NCBI GenBank assembly: GCA_026014745.1
Contig: JAOZHS010000002.1
Coordinates: 186,001 to 250,000, forward strand
Origin: Candidatus Bathyarchaeota archaeon
GTDB lineage: Archaea > Thermoproteota > Bathyarchaeia > Bathyarchaeales > Bathycorpusculaceae
DNA: 64,000 nucleotides
Direction: 5' to 3'
The position numbers and the translations under genes are program-made. Under the pieces are notes generated by a model that saw only the letters and a program-made list of their open reading frames with translations, was not told the DNA's origin and did not search any database. Below are positions 32,911-61,952 of this stretch, piece by piece. The stretch's first letter is position 1. Every line of letters starts with the position of its first letter.

Positions 32911-33300
32911 CCTCTTCGCCTCTGCCCACATAACCTTGTATTACCTTAAGGTTTTAAGGTTTCGGAAAAAAGCAATAATCCACAAAACTGTCGTATGAGC
33001 AGTTTCTTGTTTGATTGAGCTCCAGGGAAAAAAGCAGAGCTGACAGATACACAAAACAGAATTTGAAAAAACCCTCATTTTTCGAATAGAAAAATAAAAA
33101 CGGCGTTTAAGCCAAAAAGACCTCGATTTTTTTTCTTAGTTACTTTTTGGGGCAAAACAGGCCTTTTTGTTCCATAGCCTAATATAGTCCCGTAAACCTT
33201 TTTCTTAGTTTGTGGGAATTCTTTAGAGGAAGAGTCTTAGAAAAAACAGTCGCTTTTTCTCCAATTTATTCTAAACGGTGGTTATTTGAGGTTATAGAAT
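32911..33300 (+). promoter_or_regulatory. 390-base leader/promoter region of aIF1A copy 1, conserved in copy 2
   Basis: No gene is seen here. Several blocks recur in the same order upstream of the second aIF1A (about 61086-61317): TTTTTCGA-TAGAA, GTTTAAGCCA/TTTAAGCCAG, CCTAATATAGT/CCTAATGTAGT, GGAATTC-TTTAGAGGAAGAGTC (33217-33238) and GCTTTTTCTC (33253-33262). CCTAATATAG (about 33178) could be the TATA box, which would leave an untranslated leader of roughly 90 bases containing the last two blocks. Confidence 0.6.
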
Positions 33301-33606
33301 TTGGGTAAACGAAAAATAACAAATGAGGGCAGCTTGGAAAGCATGATTCTGCCTACTTCTAATGATGTTTTGGGTATAGCAGTAAAAATGTTAGGTGCAG
33401 ACAGAATTATGGTGAAATGCCAAGATGGCAAAGAACGTCTATGCAGAGTCAGAGGCAAACTTAAAAGGCGCGTCTGGATACGCGACGGCGATATCGTTTT
33501 GGTTTCTCCGTGGGATTTTCAAAGTGACAGTAGAGGCGACATATTTTGGCGTTATAGGAAAAATCAGTGTGACTGGCTTAGAAGCCACAGCTACCTGACC
33601 ATGTAG
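33301..33606 (+). CDS. eif1A: Translation initiation factor aIF1A, copy 1
   Basis: A 101-aa OB-fold protein with a TTG start: KITNEGSLESMILPTSNDVLGIAVKMLGADRIMVKCQDGKERLCRVRGKL in pieces, then KRRVWIRDGDIVLVSPWDFQSD. These are the family's RNA-binding OB fold and C-terminal helix. It binds the ribosomal A site and promotes initiator tRNA and start-codon selection. It is one of two copies here; the other (61318-61623) differs at roughly a sixth of positions. It is followed by the LysW-like gene and, further on, aIF2-alpha. Confidence 0.93.
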   Translation: MGKRKITNEGSLESMILPTSNDVLGIAVKMLGADRIMVKCQDGKERLCRVRGKLKRRVWIRDGDIVLVSPWDFQSDSRGDIFWRYRKNQCDWLRSHSYLTM

Positions 33607-33619
33607 GAGGATACGCTCG

Positions 33620-33799
33620 ATTATTATAAAGTGCACTGAATGTGGGAATAAGTTCACAAAAGAAACCCCATCTGATGGAGAAGTTGGAGAAGTGGTATGT
33701 TGCCCAATCTGTGAAGCTCAATACAAAGTAATAGTTACTGATGGGAAATTGCGTTTAGAAGAGTCGATATGGGACGAAAATGACCGTGGAGAACTCTGA
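33620..33799 (+). CDS. LysW-like zinc-ribbon protein, copy 1; probable ATT start
   Basis: The frame reads 59 residues: KCTECGNKF and CCPICEAQYKV (two CxxC pairs), VTDGKLRLEE, and an acidic tail ending ENDRGEL. The layout (zinc ribbon, short beta, acidic tail ending like EDWGE) resembles LysW amino-group carrier proteins. No ATG, GTG or TTG exists between the in-frame stop at 33596 and the first Cys. GGAGG at 33606-33610 is followed after 9 bases by ATT ATT ATA. The second copy has the same problem. No lysine/arginine LysW-pathway genes are nearby. Confidence 0.68.
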   Translation: MIIKCTECGNKFTKETPSDGEVGEVVCCPICEAQYKVIVTDGKLRLEESIWDENDRGEL

Positions 33800-33820: not shown

Positions 33821-34348
33821 ATGAGTGAAAATAAGATAAATTTCATAATAGCGGTACGTGGCTATAAAAACGTGAAAAAACAAACAAACGGTAAATTCAC
33901 GGACTTTTCGGCTGCAGATCAATTGAACCAAAAAGTGCTCATGCGGATTATTGAGCCTCAAGGAAATGAACTGATAGGCGTCACTGAGGTCAAAACCTTA
34001 TCAGTTTTCATGAAACTCGAAAGCTATGCTTCCGCGGTTCTATTTGGCAGAAAATTCACAGAAGATGCTATTACAGAAATGAGCGAGCATAACATTCAGT
34101 ATGTTTCTGAAGACTACCTGCCACCATTCGACACTAAACAATTATACTTAGCAATTATGGACTACATCAACATTCAATGCGACAAAAGATGCGGAAGAAC
34201 CTTACATGCAATATCTGAATGCGAAGAAAAAAATAAGGACTTCTGCAAAATAAAAAACCTTGCCAAAAGCGCAAAAGAACATTTTAAAGATGGAACAGTT
34301 GGATTACTGAAAAACGACTTAAAAATGGCTTTGGCGCTGAGTCGCTAA
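33821..34348 (+). CDS. Stand-alone Rpb5-jaw/Mrr-like domain protein with C-terminal Cys motif
   Basis: A 175-aa protein not assignable to a named family. Residues 52-105 line up with residues 58-110 of the long RpoH in this window: [IV]G[IV]-x3-[NK]TL-x3-MK-x5-A[IV]-x4-[RK][FY]T-x2-A ... PxFD. The same region is the jaw domain of Rpb5, a restriction-nuclease-like fold. A C-terminal C-x3-C-x9-C-x7-C motif (C120, C124, C134, C142) may bind zinc. It lies between the LysW-like gene (21-base gap) and aIF2-alpha (30-base gap), so it is probably co-transcribed with initiation-factor genes. Function unknown. Confidence 0.7.
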   Translation: MSENKINFIIAVRGYKNVKKQTNGKFTDFSAADQLNQKVLMRIIEPQGNELIGVTEVKTLSVFMKLESYASAVLFGRKFTEDAITEMSEHNIQYVSEDYLPPFDTKQLYLAIMDYINIQCDKRCGRTLHAISECEEKNKDFCKIKNLAKSAKEHFKDGTVGLLKNDLKMALALSR

Positions 34349-34378: not shown

Positions 34379-35167
34379 ATGTCTGAACAAAACATAGAAT
34401 GGCCTGAAATCGGCGACTTAGTTATCGCAACCATCAAAACAGTGATGGACTACGGCGTGTATGCTAACCTTGATGAATATAACAAGAAGGGTTTTCTTCA
34501 CATCTCAGAGATTTCAAGCGCCCGTATACGAAACATCCGAGATTTTGTCCGTGAAAACCAAAAAATGGTCTTAAAAGTTCTTCGAGTAGACTTAGAAAAA
34601 GGTCACATAGACTTATCGTTGAGGCGAGTCACCAAACGGGAACGTATCGAAAAAGTCAAGTCGTGGAAAAAAGGGAAAAAAGGAGACGCATTACTCTACG
34701 TAGTTGGTGAACGGGCGGGTTTATCAAAGGAGGAAATACAGCAGAAAGTCGGCGCTATTCTGGAAGAAAAAATCGGCATCTATGAAGGCTTCGAGAATGC
34801 CGTAAAAGAAGGCCCTGATAGTCTGGTCAAATATGGAATCCCTGAAGATTTGGCAAAGGTTATCGCGCAAGTTGCAGATGAACGCATTAAAATTAAATCA
34901 GTCAAATTAAGAGGCGTCTTGGAGGTGCGGTGCATGCAGCCCAACGGCGTCAGATGCATCCAAGAAGCATTCCGTAATGCAAAAAAAACTAACTCTTCAA
35001 AAAATTCTAAAATCGAGTTCGCAGTCATAGCTGCACCAAAATATCGCGTTGAAGTTTCTGCCGATAACTGGAAAGCCGCAGAAGCACTTCTTAAGAAAGT
35101 AGCTGACAGTGTGGTTGAAAACATCACAAGCTTAGGCGGACATGGCGACTTTAAGGCAGAGAAATAA
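34379..35167 (+). CDS. eif2A: Translation initiation factor aIF2 subunit alpha
   Basis: A 262-aa protein. An N-terminal S1 domain (GDLVIATIKTVMDYGVYANLDEYNKKGFLHISEIS, in pieces; about 10-85) contains the segment where eukaryotes carry the regulated Ser. A helical domain (about 90-175) and the C-terminal alpha/beta domain that binds the gamma subunit (RGVLEVRCMQPNGVRCIQEAF onward) follow. With beta and gamma it delivers initiator Met-tRNA to the ribosome. It is the last gene of the aIF1A cluster. Confidence 0.94.
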   Translation: MSEQNIEWPEIGDLVIATIKTVMDYGVYANLDEYNKKGFLHISEISSARIRNIRDFVRENQKMVLKVLRVDLEKGHIDLSLRRVTKRERIEKVKSWKKGKKGDALLYVVGERAGLSKEEIQQKVGAILEEKIGIYEGFENAVKEGPDSLVKYGIPEDLAKVIAQVADERIKIKSVKLRGVLEVRCMQPNGVRCIQEAFRNAKKTNSSKNSKIEFAVIAAPKYRVEVSADNWKAAEALLKKVADSVVENITSLGGHGDFKAEK

Positions 35168-60951: not shown

Positions 60952-61317
60952 ATCTATTTACCTCTATGTTGTTTTGTGTTTAGAAAAGAATCAATTATTC
61001 AATCAGTCAATTCCAAGAGGATAATAGAGACTCTTCAATCAACAATACCGTTGGGTCAGACTAATAAAGGTTAAAATATTCAGCGTTTTTTCGATTAGAA
61101 GTTATTTTTCCAGTTTTTTCCTGAAAAACAGTTTTTTAACGCTTTTTCCACGTTTTTAAGCCAGAAAAATCCTTTTCGAGCGATACCCTAATGTAGTTGG
61201 TGAAGTCATGTATGTGTCATTGGAATTTTTAGAGGAAGAGTCAACCCAAAAGTTAGTTGCTTTTTCTCAGATCATTCTGATTATAACGTGGTTTAACGCC
61301 ACACTGGACAACATAAA
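60952..61317 (+). promoter_or_regulatory. 366-base leader region of aIF1A copy 2
   Basis: From about 61086 the sequence repeats the ordered blocks of the copy 1 leader: TTTTTTCGATTAGAAG, TTTAAGCCAG, CCTAATGTAGT, GGAATTTTTAGAGGAAGAGTC (61219-61239) and GCTTTTTCTC (61258-61267). Blocks between these have diverged. The left part holds the promoter of the small minus-strand genes. No gene. Confidence 0.6.
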
Positions 61318-61623
61318 ATGGGTAAACGAAAAGTAACAAATGAAGGCAACATAGACAGTATGGTTCTGCCTTCGCCAAACGATGTTTTGGGCATAGCAGT
61401 GAAAATGCTGGGTGCCGAAAGAATCATGGTTAAATGCCAAGATGGAAAAGAACGTCTCTGTAGAATCAGAGGTAAACTGAAAAAGCGCGTCTGGATAAGA
61501 GAAGGCGACATAGTTTTGGTTTCACCATGGGATTTCCAGACCGAAACTAGAGGCGATATATTTTGGCGGTACCGAAAGAACCAGTCAGATTGGCTTAGAA
61601 ACCACAATTACCTAACAATGTAG
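61318..61623 (+). CDS. eif1A: Translation initiation factor aIF1A, copy 2
   Basis: A 101-aa protein, ATG start, the same length as copy 1 and alignable without gaps: NEGNIDSMVLPSPNDVLGIA, GAERIMVKCQDGKERLCRIR, KKRVWIREGDIVLVSPWDFQ. All OB-fold positions are kept, so it is probably functional. Changes are mostly conservative (D/E, K/R, I/V). It is followed by the second LysW-like gene; the copy 1 successors (jaw-like gene, aIF2-alpha) are missing. Confidence 0.92.
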   Translation: MGKRKVTNEGNIDSMVLPSPNDVLGIAVKMLGAERIMVKCQDGKERLCRIRGKLKKRVWIREGDIVLVSPWDFQTETRGDIFWRYRKNQSDWLRNHNYLTM

Positions 61624-61632
61624 TGAGGACTG

Positions 61633-61830
61633 ATTAAAATTAACCTTAAATGCACCGAGTGCGGAAACACATTCAAGAAAGATTGTATAGCACTTGACGA
61701 AGTAGTTATCTGCCCAATCTGCGAAGCAGAATACAAAGTAGTGGCAACAACGGATGGCAAACTACGTCTAAAAGATTTTGTCCTCGACGAAAGTGACTTT
61801 GGTGAACTAAGCGTTTCACGAGAAAAATAA
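61633..61830 (+). CDS. LysW-like zinc-ribbon protein, copy 2; probable ATT start
   Basis: The frame reads 65 residues: LKCTECGNTFKKD, VVICPICEAEYKVV, TDGKLRLKDF and an acidic stretch DESDFGEL followed by a short tail. An in-frame stop at 61624-61626 leaves only GGA CTG ATT AAA ATT before the ribbon, so no ATG, GTG or TTG start exists. A GAGG site at 61625-61628 precedes ATT 61633 (4-base spacing) and ATT 61639 (10-base). It is the homologue of 33620-33799. Confidence 0.66.
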   Translation: MKINLKCTECGNTFKKDCIALDEVVICPICEAEYKVVATTDGKLRLKDFVLDESDFGELSVSREK

Positions 61831-61853: not shown

Positions 61854-61952
61854 ATGAAGTATAAAACTCCTGATAAAAAGGTAGAACGTTTAGGCGGCGG
61901 TAAAATCCGAGGCTTAATCGTCAATGAAAACATTGACGAAGCGATTACTTAA
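61854..61952 (+). CDS. 32-aa peptide downstream of aIF1A copy 2
   Basis: ATG at 61854, 6 bases after GAGGTGA, TAA at 61952. The product is basic then acidic (KYKTPDKKVERLGGGKIRGL then NENIDEAIT). No similarity to the jaw-like gene that follows copy 1 was seen. It may be a short remnant or a real micropeptide. Confidence 0.4.
   Translation: MKYKTPDKKVERLGGGKIRGLIVNENIDEAIT

Follow-up and report, generated by a model that had tools for sequence, protein, structure and literature searches.

The 64,000-nucleotide stretch that we analysed (hereafter, the window) represents positions 186001-250000 of contig C2 in genome G000 (G000:C2:186001-250000), and it carries, on the forward strand, two units in which a leader hairpin precedes a gene for the initiation factor aIF1A and a gene for a LysW-like zinc ribbon. 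The first-pass annotation had described such a duplicated unit, and we found both copies (33.2–33.8 kb and 61.2–61.8 kb) with their genes intact. In copy 1, a TATA box (TAATATA, 33180..33186) is located 32 nt ahead of the hairpin (33212..33276; recognised by folding and by our covariance models R1 and R2, with 58.6 and 55.2 bits, respectively), followed by an aIF1A gene with a TTG start (33301..33606), assigned with IF-1A models and a tree, and by the zinc ribbon gene (33620..33799) with a probable ATT start. Downstream lie H175 (33821..34348), which codes for a 175-aa protein with a predicted restriction-endonuclease-like fold and is kept in the operon, and an aIF2-alpha gene of a second kind (34379..35167), 64% identical to the canonical copy of the same genome (G000:C1:70471). 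Copy 2 comprises a TATA box (TAATGTA, 61189..61195) 30 nt ahead of its hairpin (61219..61282; folding, R1 58.9 bits, R2 62.9 bits), an aIF1A gene with an ATG start (61318..61623), assigned in the same way, and a zinc ribbon gene (61639..61830) with a probable ATT start at 61639 and another in-frame ATT at 61633. A short leftover reading frame is found behind the latter gene (61856-61951); a similar stretch seems to be present behind an aIF1A gene of the same class in genome G017, and these are perhaps remains of operon genes.

The leader block TTTAGAGGAAGAGTC, reported at first pass as recurring in both units, is exact at 33222 and 61228, and it had 5 matches in the window versus 1.5 expected when up to 3 mismatches were allowed. 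Formal alignment of the two leaders (33212-33276 and 61219-61282) bore out their similarity: 47 of the 66 columns were identical, and the score was 69, whereas 1000 dinucleotide shuffles gave 19.6 +/- 7.1 and at most 40. The 60 bases upstream of the leaders, including the TATA box, were also more alike than shuffles, and the likeness of the spacers between leader and start codon was not above them. The two aIF1A proteins (101 aa each) are 82% identical, and the dN/dS comparison that had been suggested for them gave a dN of 0.088 and a dS of 1.16, indicating strong purifying selection. Misassembly of one copy was rejected, since both lie on a single 892-kb contig and differ in 18% of their residues; a second genome, G019, likewise has two copies.

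Both aIF1A proteins scored over the NCBIfam cut-offs (NF003084: 126.8 and 125.5 bits, cut-off 91; TIGR00523: 114.9 and 110.8 bits, cut-off 102.9). A third, canonical aIF1A gene of G000 is found on a different contig, where it adjoins a RIO1-like kinase gene; this housekeeping neighbour is absent beside the two window copies. We built a tree of 111 aIF1A proteins, without Haloferax, which had few columns and left many forks unresolved, and in which a single branch with support 100/94 split the leader-linked proteins (37 rows) from the RIO1-linked ones (37 rows). The two window copies were not sisters; copy 2 clustered with proteins of G019 and G017. By sequence comparison, the window copies are therefore two members of an old paralogue class, which we named aIF1A2. 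Intact aIF1A2 genes were present in 15 of the 32 genomes of the genus, with two copies in G000 and G019.

The leader forms a hairpin of 58-85 nt upstream of aIF1A2 (37 loci folded), in which an internal loop separates an outer stem (about 8 pairs) from an inner one. For the first leader set, 37 loci out of 43 were anchored visually (L091, L060, L063, L064, L065 and L066 were excluded). R1 was built from 14 of those 37 loci in one register, and R2 from 50 matches (E <= 0.0003) in 49 loci; a preceding run on 54 loci had yielded antisense matches as well as three weak ones in sense orientation (L047, L054, L053), all of which were dropped. In the alignment of 50 sequences, 95.2% of 1025 cells were paired, versus 40-63% with slid partners, and changes on both sides were found at 6 pairs; 0 out of 500 shuffles reached these values. 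Since the alignment used for these counts had been fitted to the structure, and since its sequences are related, the figures support the structure without proving it. The covariation (13 double-change cells) is modest because sequence conservation is very high. Mean folding energy was -19.6 kcal/mol for the sense and -11.0 kcal/mol for the antisense strand, the sense strand folding better in 49 of 52 sites. The leader thus combines a conserved structure, on the sense strand, with a position ahead of related genes, as cis-regulatory leaders in general do.

No named RNA family was matched: in the window, 0 of 4227 Rfam families reached the gathering threshold, and six loci searched at E <= 1 gave solely two tRNA-type matches, both on L058. 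Mimicry of 16S rRNA by the two window leaders was no better than in shuffles, and an exact search of viral_contigs with one leader pattern gave 0 matches. In the literature titles and abstract beginnings searched, with few subscription papers among them, we found no report of the leader or of the bathyarchaeal aIF1A copies. The general type, a cis leader RNA, is already known; this leader RNA is, judging from these comparisons, apparently real and so far undescribed. An apical-loop motif (ATCGGCT-like, up to 2 changes) was detected in 24 of 52 loops versus 9.3 in shuffles, and was seen in neither loop of the window copies.

A covariance model search recovered 52 leader sites (E <= 0.001) in 41 of the 256 genomes of the class, 40 of them in the family of the window's genome and one (G143) in a different family of that order. 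Filtering was stricter in the searches at family, order and class level, so weak copies may have been missed there. The leader is conserved through 15 genera, and in G000 it matched the two window copies only. The first gene behind the leader was aIF1A in 39 sites (a count that includes two truncated or broken genes, in G005 and in G042, the latter with a 59% match, neither of them a full aIF1A2, as well as a gene interrupted where its contig stops, G081:C44), an SSB-like OB protein in 7, a glycosyltransferase in 3, and H175, the zinc ribbon and aIF2-alpha in one each. The SSB-like gene was also found behind aIF1A2 in several genera, and the glycosyltransferase is out of place in a regulon devoted purely to translation. 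Within the genus, all 15 genomes with an intact aIF1A2 have the leader, and a sixteenth leader is found in G005 ahead of a truncated aIF1A, H175 and aIF2-alpha. In G017 the module is split in three pieces with their own leader each, one of them behind an aIF1A remnant. Since these pieces and G005 retain it, the leader outlives aIF1A and remains with the neighbouring genes. Some units arose from duplication with aIF1A decay; therefore, part of the leader sharing is inheritance. The proposal that a duplicated initiation factor had kept its leader under selection is thus well supported for the hairpin, which is kept across the family; the two genes do not represent a duplicated housekeeping factor, the canonical aIF1A lying elsewhere, and the leader is not private to aIF1A, as relatives have it in front of aIF2-alpha, SSB-like and glycosyltransferase genes too. 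We also observed a weaker second leader-like hairpin in G049 (L053:1360-1436), scoring 26.4 bits with R1 and accompanied by a TATA-like word, ahead of another operon containing an SSB-like gene.

All 52 sites have a TATA word (TAATATA in 44) 27-35 nt ahead of the hairpin's first base, versus a mean of 0.6 and a maximum of 4 in the shuffled control; the word list had been drawn up after viewing the sequences. Given this spacing, the expected transcription start coincides with the beginning of the hairpin or directly adjoins it. We infer that the first base of the hairpin is also that of the transcript, which would give the mRNA a paired 5' end. The distance from the hairpin to the start of the first gene was 12-148 nt, mostly 24-53 (52 sites). 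Plain occlusion of the ribosome site by the hairpin is unlikely, because the hairpin stops short of the start codon.

The zinc ribbons of the window scored below both NCBIfam cut-offs for LysW/ArgW (28.7 and 24.0 bits versus 53.2; 27.0 and 29.2 bits versus 75). A structural model (pLDDT 70.6) had LysW chains as its top four Foldseek matches (prob 1.00, E 0.008-0.014). The C-terminus of LysW, an amino-group carrier, is a glutamate (EDWGE). A D-x-GE tail is common to both proteins, and the predicted fold may be as well; in nearly all of the 22 zinc ribbons aligned this tail, mostly kept, continues with L, I or F or with further residues (GEL, GEI, GEF or longer), and the LysW-type C-terminal glutamate was not found as a feature of this alignment. 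The cysteines and the tail are conserved in the 22 sequences.

In neither window copy is there an in-frame ATG, GTG or TTG upstream of the first zinc ligand. We examined start codons in 15 intact zinc ribbons of the genus type found directly behind aIF1A2 (14 plus L151), excluding the decayed L024 (ATT) and L055 (ATA) and the false match L027. The fourth codon before the cysteine was ATT, ATC or ATA in 13 out of 15, the exceptions being L017 (GTT) and L022 (ATG); L018 has an ATG one codon earlier, which leaves 12, of which 11 are without any ATG, GTG or TTG and one (L015) has a TTG two codons ahead of the cysteine. Behind aIF1A2 in other genera (4 rows), the start was ATG, TTG, ATG one codon earlier, and none. 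Zinc ribbons that are detached, follow a remnant or have H175 first carry ATG at that codon in 4 out of 4 cases (L043, L093, L132, L040). The simplest reading of these alignments is that, in one genus, zinc ribbon genes following aIF1A2 exchanged an AUG start for AUH, and translation of the zinc ribbon would then begin at AUU, AUC or AUA. A less probable, though serious, reading takes ATH as an internal isoleucine codon of a zinc ribbon that begins upstream at an unusual codon, or of a gene that is dying. Third-base variation among ATT, ATC and ATA is what an internal isoleucine codon is expected to show, and decayed copies do occur in relatives (L024 and L055); against this, residues farther upstream of the ATH codon are not conserved, L001 and L015 have an in-frame stop just ahead of the 8th and 5th codon before the cysteine, zinc ribbons outside the position behind aIF1A2 have ATG at exactly the ATH codon, and the cysteines and tail of the aligned zinc ribbons are conserved. 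Fusion of aIF1A and zinc ribbon by read-through or frameshift was rejected, as the frame after the stop is 0, 1 or 2 across genomes. The texts of two papers on archaeal start codons (PMC6237735 and PMC7531240) contain no mention of AUU, AUA or non-AUG.

The second kind of aIF2-alpha was detected in 13 of the 32 genomes of the genus, and 12 of these 13 genomes also contain the leader at one place or another. No leader was detected next to this gene in 7 of the 13 (G007, G008, G009, G010, G016, G026 and G029), the stretch examined in G016 ending 51 bases upstream of it. In 5 genomes (G008, G009, G010, G016 and G029) it was the only aIF2-alpha found, which suggests that the canonical gene was replaced there; hence the second aIF2-alpha probably works as a true subunit. 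Duplication of aIF2-beta and aIF2-gamma was rejected, as G000 has one of each over cut-off. The H175 protein of the window matched no Pfam family; the best matches of its predicted fold include chains of EndoMS, MspJI and the RNA polymerase subunit RPB5, and H175 is possibly inactive.

The interpretation towards which we lean is that a 5'-terminal structured RNA leader puts an alternative initiation-gene module under common control. The module would consist of aIF1A2, the LysW-like zinc ribbon and H175, with the second aIF2-alpha added in copy 1. The hairpin would act after transcription, by protecting the 5' end, by binding a trans-acting protein, or both, and the most likely candidate binder would be an OB-fold product of the regulon acting in feedback. 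A paired 5' end on the mRNAs of aIF1A and aIF2-alpha copies would fit control of stability or translation there. Bacterial infC, which encodes IF3, reportedly starts with AUU and controls itself, an observation attributed to Butler et al. in 1987. If the zinc ribbon starts from AUU, AUC or AUA, its output would similarly rise as start-codon stringency falls, and its start would be an archaeal parallel to infC; an initiation-factor operon would then, as with infC, include a gene with a third-base near-cognate start, but in these archaea the unusual codon would belong to the zinc ribbon gene downstream of the factor rather than to the factor gene itself. A bolder scheme, rather unlikely in our view, would have a housekeeping initiation machinery side by side with an alternative one, made up of aIF1A2 and the second aIF2-alpha, that selects mRNAs tagged by the 5'-terminal hairpin, with the AUU/AUC/AUA zinc ribbon serving as a gauge of stringency.

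Three other accounts of the leader have to be weighed. It might work at the DNA level, as an operator or extended core promoter just behind the TATA box that a transcription factor binds in double-stranded form, the inverted repeat providing two half-sites: the block always lies at a near-fixed distance from the TATA box, at the predicted start site, and its conserved part is the two arms while the loop varies. That loop, however, ranges from 7 to 45 nt, G-U pairs that break palindromic DNA symmetry are common and retained (three of the pairs, for instance, are G-U in 31, 38 and 28 of the 50 sequences), and the sense strand folds far better than the antisense; we consider a DNA element unlikely. 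Its strong stand-alone fold and 5'-terminal place would also suit a hairpin that is processed off as a trans-acting small RNA, its position ahead of genes being its production route, but a leader stands ahead of every piece of the split module in G017 and all 52 matches in the 256 genomes precede the module gene set, which makes this improbable. Finally, the likeness of the two window leaders could be a functionless remnant of duplication, and unit duplications are indeed seen in several genomes; yet the leaders have kept most of their columns while synonymous sites have become almost saturated and spacer similarity does not exceed chance, and a remnant would hardly be conserved through 15 genera, so we give this account very little credence.

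The preferred reading, control by an RNA leader, can be compared with described systems. Haloferax volcanii also has two aIF1A genes within one archaeon, the jointly essential paralogues aIF1A1 and aIF1A2, and is called unlike other archaea in this respect; the available parts of that account mention no shared RNA leader or aIF2-alpha copy (PMC8576121). The bathyarchaeal aIF1A2 has its own leader and splits from the RIO1-linked aIF1A within Bathyarchaeota. Archaeal leader RNAs of ribosomal proteins (S15, eL15 and L4) are likewise cis structures preceding translation genes, according to the parts available of PMC7247131, in whose text the term "initiation factor" is absent; the aIF1A2 leader differs in having neither an Rfam match nor, in the two window copies, 16S rRNA mimicry. 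In Sulfolobus, aIF2 is described as binding 5'-triphosphate ends and protecting mRNA, with Trf, a protein combining Zn and OB domains, as a partner in this 5'-end system (PMC3936769), and aIF1, aIF1A and aIF2 participate in start-codon selection, as stated in the portion available of PMC7531240. Initiation factors at mRNA 5' ends and a Zn plus OB partner recall our module, but the available parts of PMC3936769 describe no conserved hairpin, and the zinc ribbon here is LysW-like and lacks an OB domain.

Known archaeal leader RNAs are few, and none is described as tied to initiation factors in the sources available in part. A short, alignable hairpin ahead of aIF1A2, the second aIF2-alpha and SSB-like genes offers a handle on the regulation of protein synthesis in Bathyarchaeota, an uncultured group of archaea, and makes testable whether paralogous initiation factors choose mRNAs by 5' structure. 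Soil and sediment archaea with extra initiation proteins may run a second, separately controlled mode of initiation, and zinc ribbon genes starting with AUU, AUC or AUA would escape gene finders limited to ATG, GTG and TTG.

The aIF1A2 clade also contains genes without a leader recognised by the model (L060, L063, L064, L074, L182, L183, L185, L186 and L193-L196). Among these, the more distant L182, L183 and L186 have different long hairpins upstream, which may represent diverged leaders. Finally, a contig binned as a Cytophagales bacterium (L151, DPLR01000064.1) carries a bathyarchaeal-type aIF1A2 with a leader-like hairpin and a zinc ribbon, probably as a result of mis-binning.
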